The notes beneath the pieces were generated by a model. It had not been told where the DNA came from, ran no database searches, and saw only the letters and a program-made list of their open reading frames with translations. This document shows, piece after piece, positions 16,641 through 56,483 of a stretch of DNA of 64,000 bases; position 1 is the stretch's first letter; the number at the start of each line of letters is the position of its first letter. The position numbers were made by a program, and so were the translations under genes. This stretch comes from Onchidella celtica (Eukaryota > Mollusca > Gastropoda > Systellommatophora > Onchidiidae): positions 67,336,714 to 67,400,713 of the forward strand of contig OZ007570.1 in assembly GCA_963931925.1 (NCBI GenBank). The letters are read 5' to 3'.

Positions 16641-18449
16641 AGTACTTTTTTCTGAAAGTTGTAAGTGGAGGTTGTGTTGAGGATTTCAGGGCAGCATGCG
16701 CCGAAAGGATGTGTATGTGTGTGTTTGGGGGGAGGAAGGTGGGGGCGGATTGAATGATCTGTGCACCGAGCCAATAATTACAACATCACATAATAAAGAG
16801 CAATTTATAACCATCTTGACGGATGTAAATCCGCATGCTGGAAATTACCAAAGTTAGAGTTCATGGCACTGGTAATCCAGGTCTTTCAGCTGCTCTTGAG
16901 CCGCTATTCACCACCATTCAAGCTAACGGACGGCTAAGCATCAACATTCTGTTCTTTAGATGGAACCTGTTGCTTCTCTGTTGACACATACAACATATCT
17001 CTAATTTACTTCCTGCACCTATCAGGAAAATCAGTCGCTTGTCATTCATACAGTACATTTAGAGCGTCTAGATAATAATACTTAAGCATGGCTTTGAGGA
17101 AATAAAACTGTTTTCCCCAAGTCTTATTTTGATTTCCTGATTTACTCATATAAACAACATTATGCTCTGGTCTTCTAAAGTCTGTGCCGCCCTAAAACCA
17201 GAGTCTGTGTCACACCCATTGAATTCCATTTATATAACTTTTCCTGGCAAAGTACAATAATTTTACCTTCATGCTTATTGCAAAGAATAAAAATGTCAGG
17301 AGAAAGAAGAAATGGTCCAGACATAAAATTTAGCCAAGGAAGGGAAAACTAGCGAAAAAGTAATATATTTGTTCTGAGTTTGTTTTGCTTTTTTCATCCG
17401 AGCTCATCATACTTTTTGGGATAAAACATTGGTGAGAGTGAGTTCAATATTTTAATTACGCTTAGCTAAGACTACTCATAATGTGTCATTCCACTGGCCG
17501 CCATTTTCTTTTAATTGCAGTTTGAAAACAGAGAGGAAGTATAATAATTAATATGTTTCTGCAAATTATGTCTGTTAATATTCTTCTTGTGCCTGGTCTA
17601 TACAGAACCTAAGGGTGGGCTCGTCCCATTTTGCCGCTTCATCAAAGAAGAGTCCGTTGTTTGTCCAGAAGCTACAACAATAAGGAAAGTCTAGAAACCC
17701 TAAAGTGGCTGTTTATGTTAGTTGTGTCCCTGCCCTGATCAATAACTGACTGATTAAGCAGAAAATGCAATGATGGTGAGGGGTCGTTCTGAGCTCATAA
17801 GGGATAATAATTATGTGACATCAAGGCGTGAAAGTTCGACGGGTACAAAATGGGGCTCTGTGGTCATGCTTCAAACACAATAGTAATAAGAGAAAAGCCC
17901 AGAAGGGCAACTGCGTGTTTTGTATTTTAATGTGTTGTAAGGACATCTTAAATGCCGGACCAGTGCGTAGTGCCCCTTTATCACTAGAGTTGATTCAGTA
18001 TACAGTAAAAGTATGGTGCTGAAAAGAAAAATAAATAAAATTCATTTTGCTGATCATGTTCATTACCTTTGCATTTGGAGACCTTTTTTCCGAGCTTTTG
18101 GATAAGTTCCTGTGGGAGTATAATAAAAGCAAAATTACAATATAATATGATTCACTTATTTCTCCTAAAACTTCGATTCTGAACATATTTGCGAATAGGA
18201 AAAAAAGTGTAAGGCTGCTGCTTTGTTTGCACCCTAAATAATAGAGCAATTTACAATCTGCAAATCGCGTTAGATAGATAGCAGTACAATCTTTATAAAA
18301 CAACTGTTGAAACAGATAAAATGAAACATTCCAGTATTTCAGGATGGACAGTTTCCTACAATCTTCTAGCCCAGTTCAAGATATGATACAATAGCAATCA
18401 TGTGGACAGAAAGAACAAAACTGGTAGAACGAGCCCCCCTCTATACCCA
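16641..18449. other. Intergenic DNA, no gene recognised
   Basis: About 1.8 kb of ordinary AT-rich sequence. I see no exon, RNA gene or repeat boundary that I can support. Confidence 0.5.
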
Positions 18450-19199: not shown

Positions 19200-19289
19200 T
19201 TATCCAAATTTTTTTCTTGTAACCTTGCCAGATAATCGTGCTGTACTGGATGGCTCCCTCTTTTCTTGAGGCAGCGCAGGTATCCGTGT
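19200..19289 (-). CDS. ARM-TIR exon 9 (last), C-terminal tail
   Basis: The acceptor TTTTTCAG precedes an in-phase frame of 29 codons and a TAA (TRIPALPQEKREPSSTARLS...). The tail is basic and Ser-rich and has no domain I know. It is accepted because phase and stop fit exactly, but a different last exon cannot be excluded. Confidence 0.6.
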   Translation of the reverse strand, partial: TRIPALPQEKREPSSTARLSGKVTRKKFG

Positions 19290-22200
19290 CTGAAAAATGA
19301 CTTAGACAAAATGAAAAAGTTTGTCTTTTAATTGTTCAAATGCGATTGTAGATCATAAATACTGGGCAGAAATCTGAACTCCCATTTACTCTAGACTTAA
19401 ATACAAAAAGTATAATTCCTTACCTTCATTTTGTCCTCAAAAGGATATTTGCCACTAAAGTCGTAATGATAGTGTGCTGAAAAATATAATTCCAACCATT
19501 TCTTGGGTTCAAAATTGACTTCAAGTTTTAGTGGAACCAGAGGTTTCTTCACTTTGAATGCAGCGCAGGCTTCTGTGAATAGGCAATCAAATACCTGTTC
19601 TCGATTTGAAAAAGACAAACTGAATGTGCGAGGTCTATTTTTCCGACCGTTGACTCAAGACTAGTAGGATGAAACCCATTCAAATAAAATGAGTAGTGTG
19701 AAATAATGGAGTTTAAAAAAGCAGAGCAAAATGAAAAGACGATAACTTCAATTCTAACAGCTACATGGCAAGACTCAGTGGGCAACGAGATTTTGTTCAA
19801 TGAACACATGCACGGCGTCCCGTCCGTAGCATGTCGTTTAAATTCCTTCACGAATTACCAATTCAAGTGGAATACCCATTTGTATGCCCGTATTTATAAA
19901 GCCTAATAAAAATATAAAAATAATATTGACGCACAAGCTAGTTCAGGTCTGGAGCTCACATAAGATAAGATATCACCATTTTATTAAAAACAATTTTTAT
20001 AATTTTTTTTCTTACTTTACTGTTCATTCTGTTTCAATTTTTGCCCTCTGGAAGTTCTTTTGACAAAGCGAGTTTGGTCTTTACTTTTCTGCTGCGTCTT
20101 ATTGTATGGTTTCTGAATTATTTATTGCCCGAGGCTTTGCAACTTACAACATTTCCTTTTTGCTCCTTTCTGACTTCAGACGTAGGGCCAGTTGAACTGA
20201 ATCCTATTTCACTTTCACTTACCAAATTTCAGAAAGATCCGTTCTGTGGTTTTGGAGTTGGTTAATAACTATGAGGTTTTCGTACTATTTGTGTACAATA
20301 TACAGAGGCTCATAAGTTCTGACGCTCCCTCCAAATCCGAAATTGTCGGGGCAGAAAAATTGGTGAATATAATTCAAAACATCTTTCAAGATCTCCTAGC
20401 GGTCGGCTCTACATGGATACCTATGTATTCTCCCAGGCCACATTAATGAAGGATAAATGACGTGTGACTGCTGAATATTGCTAAAACGTACCGTATTTAC
20501 ATACATGACTTTTATTGTACTTCTCAGAGCCACACATCAAAAACACCTTAGAGTTCTTTATGCCCTTCATCAATGTAGACGCTAATACGCCTTTCATCTC
20601 TTTTCTGTCAATCCAAATCTTGAAATCTGTCTTCTGCAAGGACCAAAACAAAAACAACAACAACGTTGTTAATCAGACATGTAGATGAACGAGAGTGTAG
20701 AACAGATTTCAAGGTGTCCTGTTTATTCCGGTTGTCTGCACAAGGGACTGTACTCTCAATTACAGACGAGTGCCTAAACATTGTGTAAGTGTCGCAAATT
20801 TATAAAATTATAAATAACATATTAACATCCTCTTTTCTCAGGATAAATAATTCTGTGAATTATGTGTAATGTGTAATATGTAATGAGTGTTGAAATGAAG
20901 AGTCGTTCACATCGTACTTTGATGAGATTAGTAAAAAAAAAAAAAAACAATAATGTAATTTAAATTAACACTAACACAGAACAAAAGTAAATTTGTCATT
21001 GCAGGTGGAAACTGTTATAGTTTTAGCGAACAAAGTCTTTCATCCAATTTGGTCTGAAGCGCTCCCTGGTTGACCTTCTAGGTTCCATTGCCATTGGGTT
21101 ATTTTCCGATGGTGTCTGTGTCACTGAGGGAGTATCATTTGATGTTCGGTCTGGGTTCGGTTCTGTGTACACCTCTGTTGGTACTTGGGGTGAGAATGGC
21201 GTTCTCTTGTGTCTGATGTGTACTGTTTCTCACAAAGTGTCCTCCATTTTCTCCAGTGATTTGGTATGATTTGGAACTGTCTTTTGGAGCTGCCGTTATT
21301 ATACCACTTTCCCACTTTTTCCTTTCGGGGTTTTGGTAGTACACTGGGGAGTTTGTGCAAATGGGTGGTAGCTCGTGAGCTCTTTTATTGAAACATTTCT
21401 TGATTGTCATTTTATGCTTCTGTAGTTCTTCGACAACGTCTGGGTTTATTCTGTTCTTTTCTTTGTTCTCTGCTATTGAGGGTATCATTGTCCTAATGTT
21501 TCTTCCCATTGGGATTCTTGCAGGGCTCATTGTGAAACCTTGACGTGGTGTGTTGCGAAGTTCCAGCAATGCCTCATACTGATCTGCTCCTTCTTCTACA
21601 GCCTTCCACATCATTTTCTTTATGATTTTTACTGATGCCTCTGCCTTCCCATTAGCTTGATGATGTCCAGGGTCGGATTTGATGTGTTGAAAACCCCATC
21701 TTTGTGCGAAATTACTGAACTCACGAGAGGAATATTGCGGTCCAGAATCCGTAACAACACATTTTGGTATTCCATATCTGGCAAAATGGCCTTTCAGTTT
21801 TGTGACTATCATGGAAGTTGTTGTGATGGGCAGGTAGTCTACCTCGATGAAATTGGAGAAATAGTCTGTGACTACTTGGTATACTCGCCCTTTGATTTCA
21901 AACAAATCTGTGGCAATTTTGGTCCATGGTTCACTTCCTTCTCTATGCTGTTGTAGGTTTTCCTTGCAGTTCGAAGGTTTAATTGCTTGGCAGCTTTCAC
22001 AGTTTTCGGCCATTTGCTTGATTTCAGAGTTCATGTTAGGCCAATAAATTGCATCTCTTGCCCTTCTTACCATACTATCATATGCCAGGTGAGCTGCATG
22101 AAGTCTGGTTTTCATTTCATGTCTCAAAGTAAAAGGGACAATTATTTGTTTGCCTTTGAGAATTAGATCATTTTCTACTGACAGACAGTCCTTTATTTGG

Positions 22201-25200
22201 AAATATGGGAGTATTTCGGAAGGAACTTCACTTTCTGACTCAGGCCATCCTTCAATGATGGCCGTTTTTAGTCTTTGCAATGTTCTATCTCGCTTGCTCT
22301 CTTCAGCAAATCTATCTAGCATGAGGTCAGAAATGGGCACTGTTATGAAAGAGATTGTGGCTATGTCATCATTTACATCCGCTTCATCAGTGTCATTTTT
22401 GAGGTAGTGTCGTGAGAGGAAATCTGCGAGGATGAGCTTTTCTCCCTGAAGCCATTGAAATTTGAAATGATATTTGTTGCTCCTCATAAGCAACCGTTGA
22501 AGTCGTGGCGGAGCTTGATTCAGTGGTTTGTCAATGATGGATAGCAATGGTTTGTGGTCATTTATTATTGTTACTTCTCTCCCATAAGTATATTGGTTGA
22601 AACGTTCCAGTCCAAATACCACAGCCAACATTTCTTTTTCAATTTGTGCCCACCTTTGTTCTGAGGTGGTGAGCGCTCTTGAGGCGAATTCGATTGGCTG
22701 TCCATTTTGCATTAATACACAGCCAAGACCGAATTTGCTACTGTCCACTTGAACTTGCAGTTCTTGTTTAGGGTCAAAATATTTCAGCACAGGTGTATCA
22801 ACTATCAGTTCTTTGACTTCATTGAACTCATCTTGACACTCTCCGCTCCAATGAAAGTCAGTATTTTTCTTCACCAAATTTCTTATTGGTGCCAGTTTCT
22901 CGGATAGGTTGGGCAGGAATCTTGCTAGGTATTGAATCATGCCGCAGAATCTGCGTACTTCCTGAGCATCTTTTGGGGGTGCCATATGTGTGATTGAAGA
23001 TACTTTCTGGGGGTCTGGTTTGATTCCATCTACACCAATGCGGTGTCCCATGAAAGTGATTTCCCCTTGCTTGATGTGGGATTTGCCTTCGTTAAGCACA
23101 ATGTTTTTCTCAGAGCACCTCTCTCTCAACCTGTGTAAATTTTCATCATGATCGACATTGGCCACTTCTTGTGTTGACCCTCTGCCAACAATGACTATGT
23201 CATCAGCAACATTTATGCAGCCAGGCAAGCCTTCCAGTGCTTGCATCAGTTTCTTTTGAAATATTTCTGTGGAAACATTTAATCCAAAAGGAAGCCGTGC
23301 CCACCTGAAACGTCCAAACGGGGTGATCATTGTAGTGAGCATGCTGGACTCATAATCTAGACACACATGCCAGAATGCATCTTTTACATCTAGCTTTGAG
23401 AAAACTTTTGCATTTTCAAAAAGAGGCAGAGTGTCCTCTAAAGTTGGTAGTTTGTAATGTTCTCTTTTGAGCGCCTTATTTAAAGGTTGTGGGTCAATGC
23501 AAATTCTGAGTTTCTTGTCTGCTTTTTCAACCACTACCATCTGATTGACTCAAGCACTGGGTTCCTCCACTGGAATGAGAATGTTTCTTTCCATTAATTG
23601 ATTTAGCTCTTCTTTGACTTTGTCCTTTAAAGCAAAAGGCACGTTTCTGCACGGCAGGGCGACAGGTTTGGCATCTTGGTCTACATGTAGTTTGGCATAG
23701 CCCAGGCTTCCCAACTTTGGTTTGTCTTTGGTTTGCAATTTTCTACTGGTTTGTTGAGGTGGGTGTGATTCGGTAACATTGATAAATCTATCTCTGTGCA
23801 CAGAAAGTATCTTGAATTCTTCACAAGCTTTTGTACCCAACAAACACATAAGATTGTTTTCTACCACAGTGAACTCTAGTTTCTTCTTTTGTCCTGTTCT
23901 GATGTTTTCAACTTCTAGTTCTGCTTTGCCCACTGGCAACAATTTTGTGTTGTTCCACATGACCAGAGTATGGTCTGTCTTCTCAATTTGTTCTTTTTTT
24001 TACAAATTTCTTGCAGATTATGTTCACATCTGCTCCGGTGTCGACAAGGAAACGAATGTTGTGGTTGTTAATCTTGAATTGAGCTGTTATCCTGTTGTTC
24101 TTTGATTTATCGTTGTCTACTGCAAAAATCCATGCTGTACTCGTAGACTCTTCTTCTTGTGTCTCCATTGTTTCTGTACTTGCACAGGTTTCTGAAAGGC
24201 ACAGATTTATTTTCATACATTTTGCTCGAAAATGATTTCTTCCTTTGCAGGCTGAGCACGTTTTTCCCCTTCGCTGGGCATAGTTCCTATTGTCTAGGGT
24301 GGCTTTTGCCACAATATCTGCAGTTTGCCAACATGATTGGTTTTTGCTTTGATGATGACTGTCTCGGTGGCTGGCTAACAGCCTCAATCTTCCTTTCTTG
24401 AGAGGTTGTGTTCATTTCCTGGACATGTAATGTTGATTCTTCTTCTTCTTCTTCTTTTATAGTTGGTTCGTCTATAACTATAAGACGATTCCCCAACTGC
24501 ACTATAGTATATGCGACTCAACGTCGCTCCTCTGAGGCTAAAAACAGGGTAAAATCTTACATAGATGTTAAGACCATTTAAAAATATATTAGTTGTATAA
24601 AGTCTTTTGTATATATAAGTCTGGTATAAATATCTCTTGGTTTCCAGATTGTGCACAGACATACAACCCGCACTTTAGTTACAATGGTAGCTGCAACGGA
24701 TAATAATGTTCTTAAATTCATTGTCGAAAGTCGTTGCAGACGATAGTGTTTGGACTTCTGCCGGGAGGTTGTTCCACATCCTGATGACATTAGGGTAAAA
24801 AGAATAAAGATGGCTGTTAACCCGTGAGCTTGGGATGTTATATTTTATATTATTCCTTCTGTTGCCTCTGGTATTAATGGTGAGGTGGTTCAGTGGGATA
24901 TGGATATTTCCTTCCCTGCCTTTATAAAATATTTTTACTTTGTTTTTTGCTCTCCTCTCTTCTAATGGTGTCCACTCAAGGTCTCTCATCATTTTATTTA
25001 CACTACTACTTCTAGTATAGTCATTTGTCACAAAGCGGGCAGCTCTCCTCTGGACCCTTTCCAGTTGGTCTATGTTTATTCGACAGTGGGGGTCCCAGAC
25101 ACTGCAGCCATACTCTAGGGAGGGCCTCACAAAGGTGTTATAGCATTTTTCTTTTACTTTCCTATCGCAGTTAGAGATGTTCCTTTTTAGAAATGCTAGT

Positions 25201-28200
25201 ATACCGTTTGCTTTGTTACATGTGTTATTAATGTGTTGGTTCCATGTAAGTTTTCTGTCCAATGTAACTCCCAAATATTTAGCCTCATGTGTTTCGCTCA
25301 ATTTTTCGTCGTGTATAAAGTAGTCTGAGGTGATGTTGTGTTTTTTATTTGAAATTCTCAGGACTTGGCATTTATTGGGGTGGAATTCCATACCCCAGTC
25401 CCTCTCCCATTTTTGTAGACTGTCTAGATCTTTCTGTAAAATTTCCGTATCTTCTTTTGAGTTTATTGTTCTATAGAGGAGGCTATCATCAGCAAACAGT
25501 CGTAATTTAGTGCCTGGAGAGATCTTACTTGGCATATCGTTAATATAAACTAGGAATAGTAAGGGGCCCATTACAGTACCCTGGGGTACTCCCGAGAGAA
25601 CAGCTGCAGGATTGGATGACTTTCCATCAACGACGACTATCTGTGTTCTATTTTCTAAGAAAGACTTAATCCACTTCAAAGTACTGTTTCTAACTCCATA
25701 ATGGTTTAGTTTAGACAAGAGACTAGCATGGTGCACTTTATCGAAGGCTTTACTGAAATCTAATAAGATGGTATCAGTCTGCCTGTTGTTATTCAAGTTA
25801 TTAACAAAATCATTGCAAGTTGTGACCAGCTGGGACTCACACGACCTGTTTTCTAAAACCATGCTGTACATGTGTTAAAACTGAGTGTTTCTCGAGATGC
25901 TTCATGATGCTGGTATGCAAGATATGCTCTAAAAGTTTACAAGATATTGATGTCAGGGAGACTGGTCTATAATTTTCAGGACTAGCTCTATTTCCTTTCT
26001 TAAAAATGGGTACTACATTTGCTTTTTGCAGTCTTCCGGTATTTTTCCTTGTTCAATTGAAGCTCTAAATAACAAAGTGTAAACAGGGGCAATTTCCTTG
26101 GCACAGAGTTTCAGTAATTTGGCGGGAATTCCATCAGGCCCTGTAGCTTTATTTTCGTTAAGGTTTTCCAAAAGTTTCAGTACTCCATTTTCTGTGACAA
26201 ATATTTCATCCATATCCGGCAGTTTGGCATCACTCAGCTCTCCCGAGAAGACTCCCCCTGGGTCGGAAAAGACCTTACAAAATTGAGTATTTAAGATATT
26301 GGCTCTTTTTTGGGCATCTTGCTGTGGGTGCCCTCTCATCGTTCAGTGCGGCTACTCCTAAGTTTTCTTTATTTTTACTTTTCACATATCTCCAAAGTTT
26401 TTTACTGTTATCAGATGAATCACTTATCATCTCATGGATATAATTATTATGAGCTTTCCGGCATTCTTTCTGTGTCAGTCTTTTAATTTCTAGATATTTA
26501 TTTTTCACTCGTTCGGAGTTGCACTGTTTCATTTTTTTGAACCATTTATATTTTTTCCGAACTAATCTTTTCGTTAAAGTATTTATCCAGGGTTGATGAA
26601 TTTTTGTGGATGACATTTTTGTTGGGACATTTTCCATGATCATGTTCAAATTTAACTTGATACAGTCCCAGAGTTTGTTTGCGTCAGTTTTTGAAGAGTG
26701 GTATTTCATGAAAAAAGTGCCAAAAGTTGCTGCCTCCCTTTTCAAATTATTTTCGTCTGTCTGATTCCATAGGTAAATCTGTCGCCTAATAGGTCTTTTC
26801 TTAAAGGGTTTCAGTTCTGAATCAATCTGGACTATGTCATGGTCCCCTAGTCCAGGAAGAATTTTGATCTCTCTTTGATTGCTCCACTGCTCGACAAATT
26901 TGAATTGTCTTGTTGAGGTCTAACTCTACTTCTCTTAAGAGGCGTTCCTGCAACTTTTTCTCAACAGTAAAAACTATTTTGTCTCTCAACATCCTGTCTT
27001 TGTCTTTCAAATTGCATGAGTTTGCTCGAGCTCTCAATTCTGTTACAAATGAATCAAATGGAACACTGATGGGAGTGTTCCAGAAACGATATGACTGTAG
27101 TACTTCATTTGTTTTGGGGTTACAGTATTCTTCTAACTTTTGGAGGATTTTCCCAGGATTTTGCCTGTCTTCTTCTTTCTCAAAAGGAAGTTGGTCGACG
27201 ACTTCAACAGCCGTAGGACCAGCAATATGAAGGATAGTTGCAGCTTTCCTTATGTCATCCTTTTCAGAAACACCTGAAGCTGTCATGTAAATGTCTAAAT
27301 GGCGTTTCCATTTACGAAAATTCTCGGCAACATTGCCTTCATTGATTTCTAAGGACGGAGGCAGACGAAAATTTGCCTCAGCCATGATGGTTGTTTCACT
27401 CCAAATTTAGTGAATGATGACGAACTGGTAACAGTGGCACTAACAGGGCCGACTGATTATTAGATTTGATCAAGAGGGCACTAGCGGGGCCGATTGACCA
27501 AGAGATTTGAGAAACAGTGGCACTAACAGTAACAGGGCCCAATGTGTGACTGTGAGTATGTTTCAGTTTTGTTGCTACGTTTTCAAACTTGTAGTGGTGG
27601 ATTGTTCATTGCGCGTTGTGTCAATTGCATTTTGCTGCGATTAGTTCGAGGTGATACAATTTTGTTGTTGCACATTTACTGGATCTTCATGAATGACAAC
27701 ACATGCTATGTTGCAATTAGTTTGAGGTTTTAACTTGGACTAGGTCACGCCAAGGGGGGTAAGAGTGGTTTGCTTGAGGGTTCTTGAATGTATTCTTGAG
27801 TTGTCTCCCTTCGATTGCTTTTTTGTGTTTGAGCGTGTGGCGTCCAGGAAAGTTCATTTCAGTTCCACATTCGCTCAATTTCATTCCGCGATGAGTTCGA
27901 ACTCGGGAGGTTGGGTTCAATCATTCATTCAGTGAATGTACTTAACTGACTGCCACCATGTTAATCAGACATGTAGATGAACGAGAGTGTAGAACAGATT
28001 TCAAGGTGTCCTGTTTATTCCGGTTGTCTGCACAAGGGACTGTACTCTCAATTACAGACGAGTGCCTAAACATTACGTAAGTGTCGCAAATTTATAAAAT
28101 TATAAATAACGTTATTTCCTGTATTATTTTACAACGTGAGGAAAGTTTATGGAAGTAAAAAAAAATGCCTTTCTGTCTTTAAATCAGTATATAAACCCCC

Positions 28201-31200
28201 TAAAGCGGGGTCATTGTAAAAAGTAAAAAATAAATAAATAAATAAAAAAATAAACCACTTGTGCCAAATTGGACATTACTATATTTTGAAATTGAATCTA
28301 TGTTATGAATTGTCCGACAAATATTACACAGCCCACTTATTACAGACTAGTTGTCAAACTCCCTCAGTCCACGTCAGATTCCACTCTAAAGACAAGCAGC
28401 AGCCGTAGATGTCATCATAATTTCAATTCATGGCATGGTTGTGCTTACATCTGCAATTGGCCAGAAGTCTAAAAAAATATACCCTTGAAATAAAAGTAAA
28501 TGACTTCAGTATACCCAAACAGATAAACTGAACCTAGACTAAACTGCAAATTGCTGTACATCTCTGTCTGAGTAAATCACGTCAGTTCAATAGGGCTATA
28601 TGCAGTGTGAAATTAAAGAACGTAAAACAGACATCACTGCTGTTGAATGGAACTTCAGATACACTGCGACTACACGCACCAATCTAATGGAGGTATAAAA
28701 AGCCTTTATATAATTACGTCCTCTGGCAATTGGTTCACACAGGAATGCAAGAACAGCCAAGAATTGGATAATTGTAAGAGAACACTGTTATACCAATAAA
28801 TGAGAACCGAAGGGATCGCTGAATCGAATTAGAAGACATGCCATTGTTGTACTTGTGATCTCAGTTCTCCTCTAAACTTTTGATTCTGACATTGAACTTT
28901 GTGCATTTTTTTATCGAGTTTACAAACCTAAGATCACAAAATCGTTCACTCATTCATTCATTCATTCATTCATTCATTCATTCATTCATTCATTCATTCA
29001 TTCATTCATTCATTCATTCATTCATTCATGCATTCATACATTCATTCATTCATTCATTCATTTATTCATGCATTCATTCATGCATGCATTCATTCATTAA
29101 TTCATTTACATAATTTATATAATTATTTGCTGGTAATTGCACCTTCTATGAACGGTGAAAGGAAAATAACAGTGTGAGAGGAATCAGGAAAACAGATAAT
29201 GTCCAGTTGGTACAGCTGCCGTGGTGGCTGAATTGAGTCATTCGGAAAGAAAACAAGAAGAGTTAGAATTATCTCTGTTTTTGTTGATTTCTTAACATTT
29301 AGTGGCACTTTAATGTTATTGACACTGCCGAAGTAAGACTGCCATTAAAATGCCATCACTACCTTTGATGTCTTCAATTTTCGCTATTTAAATGACGATG
29401 TAAAGTGAACGCTTGACTTTAGAAAATCTTCCTGTCGACTAAAATAAAGTAAATTGGTCCAGGTAATGGTACAGACATCCAACACACACCAAAGATATTG
29501 GATTCAATTTGACACTATGTATGACAACTCCTGCGTGTTACATTCATCAAAATGCAGTTTGCTGCACTCACTCAGTTATCAATGTCGATCTACAGCTGCG
29601 AGAAATTACAGGTTTGTATGTTTTAGCAATCCAATACTCACCTCCGTCAATTCATTGTAGATCTTAAACACAATTTCTTTATCCTTGGAGCAATAACTGA
29701 TGAAGATATCAAAGCTGTTCTTATCCGTATCCTTGTCCCTGTCCGTGTCCTGGGATAGTTTTGACATTTGATCTGAAACTAAAAAAAAATGAAAAAAGTA
29801 AGATCATCATCATATAATAATGGAGCTTGGGCCCAACTTTGCGACCGCAAAGGCTTTTTTACTACGCAACGTAGAGAAATGAAACTTGGCACATGTATGT
29901 AAAATTTATTAAGCCTGTACGTGTCGAGCTAATTTTTTCCCGAAACTCTTTACTTTTCCCAGAAATTCAGTTATAATTATCAGTTATCAATTCATGATTG
30001 CGAATACGACGTGATAATGTACTTCCGTCAATTTCGACATTTCCGCCTCTTACCGGAAATGTAAACTAGAGTTCACGATCCAGCCACGCCAAGAAAACTT
30101 TGATAGTGATACCGAGTATAATGTTATACAGATGAGGTGAGTGCCATTCATTCATACCAAGAAAACTGTGCGTAAATATTTAGATCACTTTTTTACGAAC
30201 ACATGAGCCCATGAAAAATGCTCGGTGCGCACTACTGTGCACTGTGTACTACTGTAATCCTATTCTATCTATCTATTGATCGCCGATTCTATGTGTATGA
30301 CCCAAAGTGTCTCGACATCAATGTCTTTGTGCTGATTCCTTTCGGTCTGGAGTGGTGAGCTTTGTTTTTTATCATTCGAAGAATGGGGCAGTTACTAGTT
30401 ATAATAAATGGTACTGGATGTAGTAAGCTCTGTATATAAAAATCCTTTTGTGTTCATTCTTAAAATGATACCCCACTGAATTTAGGACAGCTATTTCATG
30501 TGATAATTTGACAATTTAAATTTTAAAAATTATGCTTGTTCATGCGGACATTATCTCGTCATCTATTTTCCTTTGTTTAATTCAATTTCCGGAGTAAATG
30601 AGAAGAAAAAAAAAACAAACGACCCTGCTATCAAAAGCAAAAAGATCAGCAGAGACTCTTACATAGATAGTGTTGAACGAAGTAATTGAGATTTGATAAC
30701 CATGTAAGGATATTCTGCACTTTTCTGTTCTATTTCAAGGGATCTAGACTCTACATCAAATTTGTAATGCATGTGCTGTACACCAATTTCAAGGCTGTTT
30801 GGTGTTGCCATGTTTTTATGGACGTCGGGAAAAAAAAGTCCAGCAGAAAAAAAAGGCCAGCGAATTGATACACTCTATGGACTACTTTCTGATGATGTGT
30901 TCAAAATTCAGAACGAAAGCTTGGTGAGTCTCGTGCAATCAGTGGCGTATCTAAGGTATGGCAGGCATGACATTTGTCCTGGCGCCACTTACGTGGAGGA
31001 GCGGGGCGTCCCTGAGAATTTTCTATTAAAGTCAGACAAACCATCCTTGCATAGTTAAAACGTTTTTTTTTTCTTCACTTGTAAACAATGCGCAGTTATA
31101 ATTTTCATGTAGCGCTACCATTATTTATTAATTGGAAGATTAACGTGCTTGAATTATATATTATCATTGTGGTGATGGTATGGTAAAGTCTCGAAAAGAT

Positions 31201-34200
31201 AGGTTTCAGGTGTTTGGACAGGTGCACTTTCAGTGCATACCATAGTTTCTTCCGTAGCTACGCCCGTGCTTACAATCCCTGCAAATAATAATGACTGCAA
31301 GAACAAATTGGGGAATAATTGTCGAGCTCTAAACAGTCAGCCGTGAGAAATGACACCAAAGATACTGCATACGATTTTACGCTCTGTGTGACAACTCTTA
31401 CCATGTCACGTTAGACAAAACTGCAATGCCGTTGCAGATCACTCAGTTATCAATGTCGTATGAAACACTGGTGGAGTTGTACTTGAGATATGTGCACTAG
31501 GGGCATCCTTACAACATGTGTGCTGGAATTTGGCCATTTTTACATCCCCACCCAACCCCTACACACACACACACACATACCCTCACACTCTTCCCCTCTT
31601 TGTGCGCATTTCATACGTTTGGATTCATTCAACCCAAGGCCCGCGAACAAGCGAGCGGCTGGTATGATGTTGAATGTTCATAATCATTTTGAAGCTTTAA
31701 TTTCGGCATTTTGCACGAATTATTTGACTGTGTCTTTGGAAACATAGCCTGTATTTGATTTTTATAATACACTTCAATCACACAACTTTTTTGGTTGAAA
31801 AAAAAAAAGAATAAAATAAAACCAAACATTTTAATTCCTTACCATAACTGAAAAGCCCACTGTTTACTTTTCACATATGCCCCACAGACTCTCCCCGCTC
31901 CCCCTCCAAATACTATAGAAAAGCTCTTCATACACCAAGGACACTGTCCTTCTCCTCATGCCCCACCCGGGGGCATGTACTATATCAATGGCCCCTCAAA
32001 CTGACCCTGATCTGGTGGCGGATCATAGTTCTCTCCCATTGCCTGCAAAGCGCCGACCACATTTCTCTTCACATTCTGGTTCGGACTGTCCCTCAAGTTC
32101 TGCAATGCCGTGAGTAAGTTCGGGTGGTCACAAATTGTTTTCTTCATTTCGCTGTCTTGTACCAGATTCCAGATACACTGTGAAGTGTATTCTTGTTCTT
32201 TAGGATTCTCCCTTTGAAGCATTGTCACAAAACTTTTTAAAATCCTCTGGTCCATCAACTGTGAAAATGAGCAGGTTGGTCAGTAGCGTTGATTTCAAGA
32301 AAAGGCCAGAAATATTTTGGATTAATTTCTAATGATTCAAGAATTTTGCCTTTTAGATCCCTACAGAGGATTCATTAATTTTGTTTTACCTCCCAATCAA
32401 AATGAAAAATGAAAATAAACACCAACTTAACAATAGAATTTGCTCCAAATTATCATTTCTTCAAGGGCCTGCGGTACGTATATTTGGGTCAATCGAATGA
32501 GTTATTTAATGTATAGCATTTATATAGCGCATATCCATTTAAAATGCTCTATGCGCTTTACAGTAACAACATGTCAACCACAGAGCAGAATGGAGCTGCC
32601 TGCGAAGCGCTCAATACACTGCACTGCTTCTTTCTCTCTCCCTGTCTCGCTCACTCTCTCTCTCTATCTCAGAGCAAATTGTAACGCAGCCTGTTAGGCG
32701 CAGTTCACAACTCACAACTCAAATAATATTTGAATATTTATTAATAACAATATATATTTAATAATGAATAATAATAAATTTTGTTTGTTGCTGGTGGGGG
32801 AGGGGGGATGATATGGATAAATTTTAATCTATTAATTTCAATTTTCAATTTTGCCCGGGCAGCGGCCTTTCGGCCTGCTCTTTACGATTTCCAACTGCCA
32901 AGGTATCTTTAACCAGCGCAACGTGCACACGGGCCCTCCGAATTTTTTCGTCCTTATCCGAGAAGACTAGGTACTAGATCCTGCCCCCTATTAGGACCAG
33001 GGACTTGAAAATATGAGAAAAATCCAATTTCCAACATGCCTGCACTGCCCGGGTTTTGAACCCGGGACCCTTTGTATTTGTATACTATTTTAATCCCATT
33101 TGGGAAATTTACCTTTGTGTCATTGCATCCAGTTATACTGGAGCAGGCACGTCGTCGCCACAGTGCAGCGCCGGTCGGCGGGTGTTTATTTATTTTTTTT
33201 TTGGGGGGGGGATGAGGGGGGAGGGAAGGGAATGGATGAATGAGCTACAGCGAGCGGCTCAGAACAAGAAGTATGTACCCGTCTAAAGCTGTGTAATTCA
33301 CAAGTATGATACTTCTTCCTTTTTTTTTCTGCTTAGAATGAAAATTTAAATTTAAATCTAACTCTAATAAAATGTATCATCCACTGTCAGTGAGAAACAG
33401 TCTTTACATCTGATGCGGACCACTAAAACATGCCACTGTTTACAACATCTAGAATGGACAGTAGAGAAAATGTTTCTGCAGGTCACATTATAGGATAGTG
33501 TAAAATGTAACTGAAAGTTGGCTTCCAGTCCCCAGGAGGTGTGGTGTCAGTGGCGTCTCTTTGGTAATAAAGAACTCTGTGTGGCATATATCTGTGACGC
33601 CAACTATAATTTCACACGAAAAGGATGAGCAGTGAAGCAAAAGGAGGCGGGGAGAGGAGAATTCTAATTGTAAAGTTTTCTATGCAGCCGCATACTCACC
33701 TTGCTTTTGTTTGCATCATTGACTGCTAGATTAGCCAGCCCTTGCGTTAATTCCCAGGAACAGGTGCCTCTTCCAAAAATTTCATTTTCGAGATACATTG
33801 CTATGAACTCAATCGTGCCTGCAGAAAAAAATTGAGATTCAAAATTGAAAAGACAGAGTTAAGTAACAGTGTACAAAATTTCCCGAGAAACAAGAAGTTG
33901 CTTTCAGACAAACTCCCTTGGCAGCAAATGGATGTCGTTAAGCTCAGTTTACAAAGTAGCAAAACTAGCGAGAAAAAGAATGCAAGATCGTGTAAGTATA
34001 GACACAAAGTCAAAATATAGCAAAAAGGAAAAGCTGTGTGTAGCAAAGCCTCGAGTAAGAAATAATACACTATTTGATTCACTTCGAGCTCCCACACATT
34101 GGCGGACTAGGCGAGGCTTTGCTACATATAACTTTTTTTCTTTGGCATATTTTGACTTTGCTTCAAGCCTCGCTGTGGTCCCAAACTTTCTGTCGTTTTT

Positions 34201-37200
34201 ATATTTCGTCAGTATGGACACGTTGACGGTGAGAAAGATACAGAAAGAACTGGTGAGAAATTGGCAATAACAATGTCCTAATCGACTTCTTTTGGAACTA
34301 AAATTCCTCCAGTCTCCCCATCCATCAGCAACGCGAGTGATCTCACTTTGCCTTTTCTAAAATTAGCTGCTGCATTCAGTGTTAAAAATATCCAATATTA
34401 TAAATAGATTTTTTTTTTTCAAACCAATTAAGGATACGGAATCCCTTACAACCCGGGAGCTTCAATTTCAACAGCAAAACGAATGTGCAATTACCGACAT
34501 AGTAGTACTTTGTTTGGTCGCCCAACACATTCTGTGTCTCTGTGAATGAACAATAATATCTTTTTTTCAATCTGACAGAATATTTTTCAAAACAATAAAT
34601 TGAAAATCCAAAATATCTGAATTAATGGGGGCGGGGTAAGCATGGTGACAAACTTGAGTTTTTACTTTGTTACAATTATGTCAGTACCACATAGAGTATT
34701 TTTCTTCAGTTGCTGAGATAATTTCCAAATTTGGACCTCCATTATGAAGCAATCGTTGCCACGTTCATTAATCCTGATACTCACCATGGTCATCAGTCAG
34801 ATGTTTTTTACCTTCTTCGTCAATGATAGCGGCCAGGAGCAAAGTACAATAACATTTTTTCAAAGGATTATCGTTTTTTAACACTGTGAAGAGATTTCGC
34901 ACTACCTGGAGAAAACAAGAATGAACGAGTTTGTCAATAAAGCAACATTATTTTGTCTGGAGTACACGCATTTGGTTTTAAAGAAACTTTACGATAGGGC
35001 AATGTCGCTCTGTAATTTCTCTTGGACGAGTCTGCAAACTGAATTCTTCTGTGTGGGTATGAAAGTAGATTTCGGTGATATTTTTTTGATATTGGGCAAA
35101 GTTACGACAGTTTAAGGTGGGCAAAAGATAGGGCGGGGAAAGGGGGGGGGGATAAAGGCCAAACGGAAGAATGGTACTGCATAGTGATTCCTTCATGGTA
35201 CTGCATAGTGATTCCTTCATGGTACTGCATAGTGATTCCTTCATGGTACTGCATAGTGATTCCTTCATGGTACTGCATAGTGATTCCTTCATGGTACTGC
35301 ATAGTGATTCCTTCATGGTACTGCATAGTGATTCCTTCATGGTACTGCATAGTGATTCCTTCATGGTACTGCATAGTGATTCCTTCATGGTACTGCATAG
35401 TGATTCCTTCATGGTACTGCATAGTGATTCCTTCATGGTACTGCATAGTGATTCCTTCATGGTACTGCATAGTGATTCCTTCATGGTACTGCATAGTGAT
35501 TCCTTCATGATACTGCACAGTGATTCCTTCATGGTACTGCATAGTGATTCCTTCATGGTACTGCATAGTGATTCCTTCATGGGAGTCCACAATTATTTTA
35601 CATTTTGTTGCTCAATTTGCCCTGCTTGTGCCCTCAACGCTACTTCAGAAGCTGACATGCAACACAGCATTGACAAGTTTTCTGAAGCATGCACCAACTT
35701 CGGCCTCACCATCAGTACAAAGAAGACCGAAGTAATGCATTACCTGAAAATCGTACACTGAACCGAATATCCTTATCAAAGGTCGGAGAGTGCAGTGGAC
35801 AAGTTCACGAACCTTGGAAGCACACTGACCCGGTACGTTGTGATGGATGTCGAAATCAATTCTACGAATGTCAAAGCCAGTGCGACCTTCGGCAGGCTCC
35901 ACACCAAAATGTGGAACAAATGAGGCATCAGCCTATCTACAAAGCTCAAGGGAATCGTCTTCCCAACGCTGCTTTATGGCTGTGATACATGGAAAGTCTA
36001 CTAACTCCACCCCAAGAAACTGAACCATTTTCACACCACCTGCCTGAGATGAATCCTGGCCATCAAATGGCAAGGCAAGGTCCCGGACACCAAGATCCTT
36101 GTCCGAGCACACTTGCCCAGCATCCACACCATCATTATGCAATCTCAGCTCCCATTGGCAGGTCACTTAGCTCGCATGCCAGGCCCCCGGCTGCCCAAAA
36201 ATCGGTTTTACGGTGATCTGCTGCAGGTCAAACGTTCTTAAGGAGACCAGCGAAAAGACAACAGCGATACGCTGAAATCCTAATTGAAGGCCTTCAACCT
36301 GGACACCACATGCTGGGGGAGAGGCTGCCCAGGATAGAACCAACTGAGAAAGAGAGAGAGAGAGAGTGTGTGTGTGTCTGTTTGCGCCCCCATTGTTTCT
36401 TCCCTTTTATCCACTTTTTTCATGCATGTTTCTTGTGTACCTTCTTATCATTTGAATTGGCCGTTAAATGCACAATTGAGACCGTCAGTATTAGTGCTGC
36501 TTCTGACAGTATTGAAAACCTCGAGCTTTGCGAAAATTAAATTACATGCAGAAACTGCACGTGGCATTCACTACTCTATTTTGTCCTTGTGTTGGAGAGA
36601 TAGGACTGAGAAAGTAAGAGATTGTCTTGACTTTATTGGTCCCATCTAAAAAGTTGATAGGACCAATAAAGCCAAGTCAATTTCTTTCTTTCCCAGTCTT
36701 TTCTTTTAAAAATGATTCTTTTCCCTTGTCTTTCCACACTCCTGAGCATGATTTTGTCTTTCCCCGTGCACTCACAATCTCCCGCCTCATTCTCATAGCA
36801 ACCATTTGCATGTGAGGACTATTGGTGATATCTGTATCCCTTTACCCAGCCAGGAGGGAGTCCGGGATTATACAAATTGGCGTGGGCTTAAGATTTTGAG
36901 GAGGCTTACTTCCCCAGAATGGAAGCAAAAGAAGGTGGGGGGGGGGGGGCTTTGGAAAAGGAATACTGATGTTGTAAAGATGGTCAGGTGCTCTCTGTTA
37001 TGTTATTTCAAAGAAAAGTCATAAAACATGAATATACAGATATGCAAATATAATATTATAATGTGTGTGTCTCTTTTTAAAATCAAAGCAAAAACAAAAA
37101 ACAAATACAAAACTAAATGAACAATTTAAAATGGGGCTTAAATATGGTACTCCTCTCCTCACTTGTAAAAAAAACAGTTTCTGTGTGTGTTTTTCTGATA

Positions 37201-40200
37201 ACATGTTGGCAGGTAAACTCTCAGAGGAAGTTTCATTTTGGATTCATTCAAGCAGACGTTTTTTGTTTTTTTTTACACAATACACAGCGGTGGATTTGCA
37301 CAAAAATTAATTGATTAAAAATACTTAAAGAATGGGCATTTTCGGCGCCAGATTATGTGAATGAAGATTTTACCTTTCGTGTCAGGGACTTTTAAATAAA
37401 AATTGACAATCATTAATGACAAGGTGGTCTAGAGGCAAGGTGCTCGCCTCTCATGCCAAGGGTCCCGGGTTCTAAACCCGGGCAGTGCAGGCATGTTGGA
37501 AATTGGATTTTTCTCATATTTTCAAGTCCCTGGTCCTATTGGGGGGTAGGATCGAGTACCTAGTCTTCTCGGATAAGGACGAAAAAATTCGGAGGGCCCG
37601 TGTGCACGTGGCGCACGTTAAAGATACCTTGGCAGTTGGAAATCGTAAAGAGCAGGCCGAAAGGCCGTTGCCCGGGCAAAATTGAAAATTGAAATTAATA
37701 GATTAAAATTTATCCATATCATCCCCCCCACCCCCCGCCAGAATTTATTATTCATTATTAAATATATATTGTTATTAATAAATATTCAAATATTATTTGA
37801 GTTGTGTGTTGTGTGAACTGCTGTGAGTTGTGAACTGTTGTGAGTTGTGAACTGCGCCTAACAGGCTGCGTTACAATTTGCTCTGAGATAGAGAGAGAGA
37901 GAGTGAGCGAGACAGGGAGAGAGAAAGAAGCAGTGCAGTGTGTTGAGCGCTTCGCAGGCAGCTCCATTCTGCTCTGTGGTTGACATGTTGTTTCTGTAAA
38001 GCGCATAATAATAATAGTTCGTCCATCAGGTATGATGATGACCTTAACAACACCAGAGGAATAAAGAACAGAAATTGTTGAGAATTTCAACACATGGACA
38101 ATAAAGAGAACTAAAGGACACAGAGGACAGAATGGAAAGACTGTTCTTTCATGACTTATGGCTTCTCATGTGACTGATAAGTCCTATTTTTGCCCTGCAG
38201 ACCCTTCCGCATAAATGACAAGAGTGCTCCGTTGGTTCAGTACCACTGGGCCTTTTCTTGCGCCGTTCTCTTTTTTTGATAGCCTGCTGGACTCTGTCAG
38301 CTTCCCATGCTTTGCTGCCTCTGGTAAGGGCCGCCCTCCAATTTGCACGATCAAGCGAGAGCTTTTCCCACTCACTCACATCAATGGCAAAGGCCTTCAG
38401 TGATTGCTTGAGAGTGTCTTTGTAACGTCTCTTTGGGGCCCCAACATTCCTCGTTCCATTGGAGAGCTCAGAGAAGAAGATTTGCTTAGGGAGTCTGGAG
38501 TCGGGCATTCTGACAACATGTCCTGCCCAACGTAGCTGAATTTTTTTCAGGTGGCAGAAGGTGCTCAATTCCTTGGCACGATTGAGGACCTCAGTGTCTG
38601 GAATTTTATCCTGCCATTTGATCCTCAGGATCTTTCTAAGGCAGGCCAGATGAAAGTGCTTTAGCTTTCTGGCATGCGATTGGTACACTGTCCAGGTTTC
38701 AGCCCCATAGAGTAGGGTGGGAAGGACCACAGCATTGTACACTTTCAGCTTAGTGTCTGTGCGAATGCCGACGACATCCCATACTCTCTTTCGAAGCCTG
38801 CCAAATGCAGAGCTGGCTTTGCTGATTCTTGAGAGAATTTCAGTATCAACACGAGCCGCGGAAGACAGTGTACTGCCAAGATAGGTGAAGTTCTCCGACA
38901 CCTTCAGAAGACTGTCATGGACTTTGATATTTGGGGTCACAGGATACTTGTCGTCTGGAGTAGGCTGATGGAGCACTTCCGTCTTCTTTGTGCTTATTGT
39001 GAGGCCAAAGTTGTCACAGGCACTAGAGAACTTATCAACACAGTTTTGCATGCTATCCTCATCGTGTGCCAGAAGTGCACAATCATCAGCAAATAGTAGG
39101 TCACAGACTTGAGTACTTTTGGTTTTGGTTTTTGCCTGAAGTCTCCTGAGGTTGAATAGACTGCCATCAGTTCGGTACTTGATGCTTACCCCTTGAGGAG
39201 GAGAGCTAAAGGCTTCTTGTAGCATTGCAGAGAACATGATGCTGAACAGAGTTGGGGCTAAGACACAACCCTGTTTTACCCCATTTGTGACAGCAAAGGG
39301 CTCTGAAACAATGCTGTTGCTTTTGACTGCAGCTTGCATGCCATCATGAAACTGGCGCACTATTGTGATGAATTCGGGCGGACACCCAAACTTCGCCAAG
39401 ATTTTCCAGAGGCCTTCACGACACACTGTGTCAAATGCTTTTGTGAGGTCAACAAATGTGATATACAGCGCTTTATTTTGTTCCATGCATTTTTCCTGAA
39501 TCTGTCTGGCAGCAAAAATCATATCCGCCGTTCCCCTCTCTTTACGAAAGCCACATTGGCTCTCGGGAAGCAAGTCATTTGACGAGAGGTGATCAAGAAG
39601 GCGATTCAGAAGCATTCTTGCCAATATTTTGCCAGCAATTGAAAGTAGAGAGATTCCCCGATGGTTGTCACAGACTTGGCTGTCCCCTTTGTTTTTGTAC
39701 AGATGGATGATTGAAGCATCTTTGAAGTCCTGTGGCAGCTTCCCTGCTTTCAACATATGATTGAACAACTCGGTCAACCTTTCAATAAGCTTTTCTCCAC
39801 CGAAGGCATACACCTCAGCAGGAATTGAATCCACGCCTGGTGATTTGTTAAAGGACATCTGTTTTGTGGCAGTTCGGGTCTCATTTGCTGTGAATGGCTT
39901 GGCAAGAGCTGCATTAATAGGAGTCTGAGGGAGGCGGTCAATGGACTCAGTATTTATATTTGATGGCCGATTTAGCACACCTCCGAAATGTTCTGCCCAA
40001 CGCTGAATTATGGCATTCAATTCAACAATGCGTGTTGAACCATCTGACGCAAGAAGTGGCGTAGTGCCAGAGCAGGATGGTCCAAACACAGCTCGGAGGC
40101 TCTCAAAGAACTTTCTAGTGTTGTTTGTGTCGGCATATTTCTGAGTTTCTCTTACTCGCTCTTCAAGCCAGTCATTTTTCATTTTCCTCAGCTTCTTCTG

Positions 40201-43088
40201 GAGTACACCCTTACATGCACGCAGTGCATCAGCTTTTGCTGTGGAAGAGGGGTGACTGCAGTGAGCTTGGATGAGACTATTTTTTTCTTTGATGAGCACT
40301 TTGATTTCATTATCATTATCATTGAACCAGTCCTGGTGCTTGCGGACAGGAAAACCAACTGTGCTGCTGGCGCAAGAGTGTACAGTCGTATTTAGGTCAG
40401 TCCAGCTCTGTTCAATGTTCTCAGGGCCAAAAGTCACGCAATCCAATTTTGAGGAGAGTTCTGATGAGAGCTCGCTCTGTTTCTCAGCTGAGCAGAGTTT
40501 TGAAACATTTAGGCGTTTAGGTGGCGCTTTCCCTTGAGGGCGTCTATTGCGCCTCAATGTTAGTCTGAGCTTGCAAACAATGAGTCTGTGGTCAGTTCCA
40601 CACTCGGCACCACACATCGCCTTTGTTACAAGGACATCCTTTCTGTCAGTCTTCCTCACAATGACATAGTCTATGAGATGCCAATGCTTTGAGCGGGGAT
40701 GCATCCATGACGTTCTGTTTCTCACGGGGAGACTAAAATTTGTGTTAGTAATGAACAGGCCAAATTCAGCGCACAAAGTAAGTAACCGCAACCCATTGTT
40801 ATTGCATGAACCAACTCCATGAGGGCCCAAAACATTTGGCCACGCTGAGATTTCGGAGCCAACCCTAGCATTGAAGTCCCCCAAGAGAATCAGCCTATCA
40901 GCTGCCGGGACAGAGCATATGACAGACTCTAGATCAGAATAGAACTTGTCTTTGGCTTCATCTGGGTTTGTCATGGTGGGCGCATATGCGCTAATGAGGG
41001 TGGCTGACTGGCTTTTCCCAACTGGGATCCTGAGTGCCATTAGCCTGTCATTTATTTCAATTGGCATGGACTGCAAGTTTCTGACAAGGTCATTTTTAAT
41101 TGCAAACCCAACACCATGCTGTCTCGGTTCGACTGCACCCTTGCCTTTCCAGAAGAAGGTGTATCCACCACTGAGCTCTTTGAGTTGGCCACTATCAGGG
41201 AGTCTGGTCTCACTGAGTGCCACTATGTCCAGGTTGTACCTGCTGAGCTCAATGGCAATAAGTGCAGTGCGTCTTTCCGGGTTGTTTGAGTTGTCCTGTA
41301 GTGTGCGTATATTCCAGGCTCCTAGCCTGAGTAAGCTGAATTTCTTTTTGTTTCGACCGCAAAAAGGGATCCCCACTGGTCGCGGTATACCAGTCAGGGT
41401 GATGTGAAGTGGGCTTTCTTTAGGGCACCTTTTCTAGCCCCTTCCTCAGTTGAGGTGAGCAGTGCTATCCTTAAATAAGGCTGCTCAGCTACTGTGGGTG
41501 CTGCCTCCCCACGCCTCCACTTCAATCGACGATGAAGCGACCATAGCCCACAGCCACCAACGTGTAGGTCTGTGCTAACAGCTTCCAGTCTATCCAAACC
41601 TGCTGCCACCGCACTCGCCCATCGCCGTTGGAATTTTGAGAGGAAAGAAGACGAGACAAAGATGAAAGAAGACGAGGTGAGTGTTAAGACTGGCGCAAAG
41701 AATTTGTTTTTAGTGAGAAAGAGCTGCGCAAACATCAGACTCACTCTCTCGCCTGGACACAACTTATCCAAGTGGCAAGACAGGGTCAAGACGACTGGAA
41801 ATGTATCCAGGTGCAGGAGGATGCCAGAGGGACAGTCATATTGCCTGACCGGCTGCCTGTAGGCTACTCCACAGCCTCGCAGTCCCAACTGACTAGGGTG
41901 AAAGACCCAAACCAAAGAACACCAATACTGGTGGATGCTCTGTGTCACGATATCCAGGCCAGAGTGACGGTATATTGCCATCTGCCCTATCAATCAACCA
42001 CTGGCCTGCTGCCGCCAGCTTCGAAGCTGCGTCCGGGAAGTTTGCTCAATTCTTCGTCTGTGATTTAGGCAAACAAGCCTATGACCACACCGCAACCGGG
42101 TGGTCATAGGGCATAGAGCATTTTAAATGGATATGCGCTATATAAATGCTATACATTATTTAATGCTATACATTAATTTAAGTTTTTTTTTTTTTTTGGC
42201 TAAATATCAAATTTTACCCGATTTCAACATGATTTCGTTTTTCTGAGAGTAGTTCGCTTGAGACCGAACTGACTGCGTCCCAATGTAAAGTTCTAAAAAG
42301 TTGTCAAGAAATGTAACAAAATTAATAAATAATATGAGGTCGTTTTACCAATAATTTATTGCAGAAATATTGCTGGGTGGACATAGATATGAGGCCGATC
42401 TACGGCCGTATTGAATTAATGTATCTACGGCTGTTAATCCCTGAGGGAGTGCCCGAAACTAGATAGCAGTGACAACATAAATTCTGTAGCTCTTGAAAAC
42501 GCAACCGTGTATCGGGGGACAGTAAAATTTCTCTGTACCGCCATAATTGTAGTCTACGAAATCGGCTGTTAACCGACGTCTGTCTGTATAATTATATGTA
42601 TGTATATGTGTAGTTTGATTGTATCAATCTACTCCTTGATAGGTCTGAGATTAAATGTGTATAACCCATAAAATTAGCTTTCCCCTTTCCAGTTTTTTAC
42701 ATCCAGCCCTTACCTCGGCCTCCATTTTTTCCAGTTCCATTTCTGCACTCTGTCCTTTTTCACGGTAGACTGTGATTGTTTACTATAGACTACCAGCTCA
42801 TGTTATTGACTCCCTTCACTAATCTGAGAGCAAAGATGTAATGCATCAGATCTCTAGACTTGGGTCTAAGTACCGGTAGCGATAATGAAAAGCCAAAAGC
42901 ATTCAGGTAGTCAGGAAATGATTGTGTTTTGGAAGGCAGACTTGAATTGTTTCCTCGTAAGCTTGTGCGATACGTTGTTCAACGTCTTTAAATCATTTGT
43001 TTTTCCAGAACGGTATTCTCAGAATGTTCCTTTTAAGTAACTGTTGAGTTGCAGTCTTGTGCTTCAATCATCTTTTGAATAAAAGTGA

Positions 43089-43145
<57 letters not shown>

Positions 43146-56388: not shown

Positions 56389-56483
56389 TTACTCCGCTTG
56401 ACAGACAAAACCTTTCTTTACATCACAGTCATTGTCGTTCCACTGATAGTTAAACTCACTGCGCATTGACAGGCAATCTTCTC
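56389..56483 (-). CDS. C-type lectin exon 5 (last)
   Basis: Acceptor CTGTCCTCAG. It encodes EDCLSMRSEFNYQWNDNDCD and VKKGFVCQAE, then TAA. It holds three of the six cysteines and the WND calcium motif. Confidence 0.93.

Follow-up and report, generated by a model that had tools for sequence, protein, structure and literature searches.

In SARM1, the enzyme is inhibited by contacts between the ARM and TIR domains, a balance tipped by NMN or NAD+, as stated in the section of PMC8635717 cited here. In molluscs, a combination of armadillo folds and a TIR domain has also been described. A table for Aplysia californica lists 11 ARM-TIR genes among putative signalling adapters, and a passage of its text gives 10 TIR proteins with armadillo folds and unknown function (PMC9334734). 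For Crassostrea gigas, ARM-TIR is a category in the legend of an immune-gene figure (PMC4346834). Excerpts from a 2026 preprint (PMC13142454) mention TIR clades, in molluscs as well as other animals, that are uncharacterised. An earlier sequence-only reading of the locus studied here had suggested a search for its architecture in other molluscs, and the Aplysia and oyster excerpts already name ARM-TIR as a class. Within the titles and abstracts of the open-access literature, which leaves subscription journals mostly outside, we recognised no NADase test of a SAM-less ARM-TIR protein.

We analysed a window of 64,000 nucleotides (C4:67336714-67400713) in the genome of Onchidella celtica, which comprises 1.14 Gb in 43 contigs. 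Its minus strand carries a real ARM-TIR gene, a divergent member of the already named molluscan kind. On present evidence, the gene is nothing unusual for a mollusc.

Exon chain and domain order

Frames between stop codons were scanned with our own scripts for exon and homology finding. Six internal exons on the minus strand, from 34905 to 19424 (positions without a contig name are those of the window), have compatible splice sites and phases. They encode about four armadillo-like repeats, a number taken from our own reading of the chain, followed by an acidic linker and one TIR domain. ARM exon 1 (VVRNLFTVLKND...DDH; 34785-34905; acceptor 9.1, donor 6.2) is, with its flanks, 95.5% identical in DNA to a second copy at C4:60947120-60947275. 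ARM exon 2 (TIEFIAMYL...NKSK; 33700-33818; acceptor 9.6, donor 8.2) is conserved in the same C4:60.95 Mb copy and resembles a frame of the paralogue on C18. ARM exon 3 (LMDQRILKSF...PPPDQ; 32006-32258; acceptor 3.7, donor 2.1) holds about two repeats, shows similarity to Vac8 and ARM_PUB and 37% to C18, and has no match in C4:60.927-60.967 Mb. It joins in phase 1 to the exon with the acidic linker (FDIFISYCSKDKE...; 29642-29772; acceptor 8.7, donor 7.3), in which TIR_2 starts. TIR_2 continues in the middle TIR exon (KTDFKIWIDRKEM...SHVCKY; 20492-20633; acceptor 6.1, donor 3.3), also conserved in the copy. The next TIR exon (EACAAFKVKKPLVPL...DFSGKYPFEDKMK; 19424-19572; acceptor 4.1, donor 7.4) contains DFSGKY, common to the window and most paralogues.

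Two candidates of the same phase compete for the C-terminal exon. The exon at 17984-18109 on the minus strand (ELIQKLGKKVSK...; acceptor 7.0, phase 0) fits the last TIR helix, and its DNA is 92% like the C4:60.95 Mb copy over 183 aligned columns, flanks included. The alternative at 19200-19289, also minus (TRIPALPQEK...KKFG*), was the end proposed in the sequence-only reading. We chose 18109-17984 by eye among the listed candidates, and it is the more likely last exon because its acceptor is stronger (7.0 against 3.1), its TIR_2 match is fuller (19289-19200 reaches 118 of 122) and the acceptor of 19289-19200 is lost in the sister copy, where AG has become GG and the frame is shifted. The gain in TIR_2 score is small, from 65.6 bits without a last exon to 66.0 with 19289-19200 and 68.1 with 18109-17984, and the 68.1-bit chain also contained the candidate first exon.

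That candidate first coding exon (MELEKMEAE; 42714-42740, minus strand) is open from its ATG to a donor of 6.5 and ends in phase 0; it is unproven. It ends in AE before VV like its counterpart in the C18 paralogue, with no homology otherwise. Apart from this possible nine-codon start exon at 42740, nothing was added 5' of 34905, and ARM exons there were not found in the window, including counterparts of the two N-terminal ARM exons of C18. The nine exons first proposed thus reduce to seven supported ones, all open and with GT/AG splice sites, and one candidate; no exon reaching the proposed limit of 43760 is supported. Just 5' of the first supported ARM exon, a 24-bp tandem repeat (35102-35592) is open in several frames (TMKESLCS). 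At 38152-41433 (minus strand), a 1094-residue frame of a non-LTR element with endonuclease and reverse transcriptase matches is open. Further 5' of the gene are C-type lectin-like exons (about 56393-59763, minus strand); their joined pieces match Lectin_C at E 1.2e-4, and another piece has no match. An ARM-like peptide at 63330-63413 (E 3.8) was rejected as chance, the lectin-like exons lying between it and the ARM-TIR gene.

The model chain with the candidate start exon has 355 residues. Pfam matched TIR_2 over 1-122 of 122 (E 1.3e-18) and ARM_PUB (E 3.8e-8; 33.6 bits against a cut-off of 33), and a PDB search with the ARM part found Vac8 at about 3e-10. The order first read from the sequence, armadillo-like helices and then one TIR domain, is borne out by these matches on same-strand, in-phase exons, which place ARM-type repeats and TIR in one gene in a chain assembled from genomic DNA, not transcripts. 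Its SAM-less plan also holds: a Pfam search of the assembled chain, from which exons may be missing, matched neither SAM nor Death at E 0.1 or below. In place of the tandem SAM domains between ARM and TIR in SARM1, exon 32006-32258 joins 29642-29772 directly in phase.

The second copy lies 6.4 Mb from the window gene. The two have exons and introns in common from C4:60947145 to 60956107, mostly at 90-94% DNA identity, and the broken segmental copy extends over C4:60947145-60956346. Its TIR is interrupted by a stop, one acceptor is lost, and no matching 5' part occurs within the 20 kb examined. Over 220 shared codons from ARM and TIR exons, with one stop codon dropped, we counted 13.5 replacement and 11.5 silent changes, giving Ka 0.026, Ks 0.091 and Ka/Ks 0.29 for the five shared exons. 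A ratio of 0.29 between the window gene and a broken copy indicates that the exon chain has been coding, and the ARM and TIR exons were both protein-constrained during part of the pair's history.

Six more ARM-TIR loci are present in the same genome, at C18:35.586-35.597 Mb, C1:62.24 Mb and C13 at 10.48, 11.13, 11.18 and 11.24 Mb. They are known from ARM-like frames and TIR exons, and at all six the ARM-like frames precede the TIR exons in the same orientation. Apart from C18, each locus has its best ARM frame at E 1.7e-5 to 0.003, with single frames reaching about 0.9, so the call at these loci is based on frame order and recurrence. The chain in the window is not a chance assembly, because the copy keeps five exons at this Ka/Ks and the order ARM before TIR recurs at six loci. 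A 12-row tree splits the window and ARM-TIR TIRs from five Toll-like TIRs at 100/99 support. Within it, the window falls outside a cluster that holds the other four ARM-TIR rows along with two C1 TIRs, the latter with no ARM frame in the 10-14 kb searched; the window gene is a long-diverged member. TIRs of another type (CRREV or CNREV) occur as two units on opposite strands at each of C1:89.38 Mb and C1:58.76-58.77 Mb.

The glutamate and the function of the TIR domain

The sequence-only reading placed a catalytic-type glutamate, Glu325, in the motif CKYEACAAF. The motif does appear upon exon joining, with the Glu codon split between G at 20492 and AA at 19572-19571. The number was not reproduced: the residue is 265 in the 355-residue model, or 256 when numbering starts at the first supported exon. 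An intron interrupts the codon at the same position in C18, C1 and two of the four C13 loci, where both junction sides were seen; the split was taken from DNA at C18 and from translated frames elsewhere. An intronless relic at C3:20193860-20194024 covers 53 TIR residues across the KY|E junction, lacks the Glu and is possibly an old processed copy. We dropped this relic as transcript evidence, the 53-residue match being too weak.

The proposed alignment of this Glu with the catalytic residue of SARM1 depends on the query. In a PDB search, the window TIR alone placed its Glu on that of AbTIR, a named NAD hydrolase (E 0.0084), and SARM1 was not among its 20 matches (E up to 10). With a seven-sequence family profile, the Glu column falls on the catalytic Glu of SARM1, E642. 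The best solved-structure matches of this profile after Cat1 are SARM1 TIRs, a result that speaks of similarity, not activity. The Glu is present at all seven ARM-TIR loci examined, window included, and its column is invariant in seven aligned TIRs (five from ARM-TIR loci and two others) while many neighbouring positions vary. The same Glu is found in five of five aligned Toll-like TIRs from this genome; a further locus, L037, whose TIR frame is long, did not align at the cut-off and is outside this count.

Four residues before the Glu, the window has Val, the paralogues have Asn and the five aligned Toll-like TIRs have Trp. The SARM1 Trp at this spacing, W638, lies in a DWVH segment that falls opposite a four-residue gap in the family profile and has no counterpart there. 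The AbTIR Trp aligns without gaps with the window Val. At this position the window is therefore less like AbTIR and SARM1 than Toll-like TIRs do. However, the Trp is a weak mark of an enzyme, because five Toll-like TIRs have it at the same spacing. A pattern search found no SARM1-like TIR signatures in the loci that it covered. The window TIR has also changed motifs that the paralogues keep, from GWLG to KWLE, MGG to MKG and EAEYA to EACAA.

We tentatively favour, with close to an even chance of being correct, a divergent but probably working SAM-less molluscan ARM-TIR protein in which the ARM part holds the TIR, and released TIRs assemble and cleave NAD+. By analogy with SARM1, a short ARM solenoid would bind a ligand or partner and keep the TIR domains apart, and release of this hold would let them assemble; we infer ARM control of the TIR from this analogy. 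Assembly would proceed through ARM and TIR contacts or a partner protein in place of SAM domains. In the least certain step, the assembled TIRs would cleave NAD+ through the kept Glu and set off a cell-death or immune response. This putative NAD cleavage is possible.

A scaffold or adaptor is the strongest alternative, with somewhat less than an even chance. In that case, the TIR would bind TIRs of Toll-like receptors or MyD88-like proteins without cleaving NAD, the ARM part would recruit partners, and the Glu would serve the fold or assembly. The Glu is not specific to enzymes, because Toll-like TIRs carry it here and, in the passage of PMC7075850 cited, it occurs in over 70% of TIR domains, some Toll-like receptors among them. 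The residue is too widespread among TIR domains to mark this protein as an enzyme. The shared Glu, the loss of motifs kept by its kin and the missing SARM1 match for the window TIR alone all argue against the enzyme. The tabulation of Aplysia ARM-TIR among putative signalling adapters and the immune-gene legend for the oyster, as far as these excerpts go (PMC9334734, PMC4346834), also fit a scaffold. On the other side, a Glu column that stays invariant while many neighbours vary is less expected of a scaffold, and so are SARM1 TIRs as the best solved matches after Cat1, although similarity is not activity. We regard the choice between enzyme and scaffold as about even.

Retrotransposon insertion and possible decay

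The intron before the middle TIR exon contains an LTR retrotransposon (20667-28110, minus strand; about 7.4 kb) whose two 152-nt direct repeats are 99% identical. It has matches to RT, RNase H and integrase, and another reverse transcriptase frame lies inside it at 24678-25874. The element has no counterpart between C4:60954810 and 60954817 and is thus absent from the sister copy; the insertion is recent and the element very young. Only 33 nt separate the element from the acceptor at 20633, a distance inside the usual branch-point range. This acceptor keeps its polypyrimidine tract and AG, and the LTR now provides a TTAAC about 36 nt upstream. Splicing of this allele may be harmed or unharmed.

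Decay of a former ARM-TIR gene, now without its first ARM exons and key TIR residues, carrying a fresh retrotransposon and making no proper protein, would fit the missing counterparts of the two C18 exons, the lost family motifs, the tree position outside its kin, the closeness of the LTR to the acceptor and the already broken sister copy, but it is distinctly unlikely in view of seven open exons with GT/AG splice sites, the Ka/Ks of the pair and an acceptor tract that keeps its AG with a TTAAC at hand.

Comparison with known systems

The favoured reading, an ARM-held TIR enzyme, has a broader form. SAM-less molluscan ARM-TIRs could form, next to SARM1, another branch of animal TIR NADases gated by ARM, one that works with a different ligand and no SAM rings, and the window gene could be a small active member; we consider this unlikely. 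Should SAM-less ARM-TIRs cleave NAD as well, regulation of TIR enzymes by ARM would be an immune device of wider use among animals, one that could do without the ring-forming SAM part. The paralogue set, which keeps the Glu at every locus examined, is material for testing SAM-less NAD cleavage.

SARM1, an ARM-SAM-SAM-TIR NADase, is like the window gene in having ARM before TIR and, by the profile, a Glu in the same column. The window gene differs in the absence of SAM, in about four ARM-like repeats and in having no Trp at the place of SARM1's, and its NADase role is putative. The ecTIR-DC proteins, as excerpted from PMC6321704, are likewise invertebrate TIR proteins; they are absent from vertebrates and proposed to be adaptors or regulators. 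The ARM-TIR class of Aplysia and oyster, compared here by the descriptions in the cited excerpts, combines an armadillo-type fold with TIR as the window gene does and is listed apart from SARM, whereas the window gene is divergent in its TIR and short in its ARM part.
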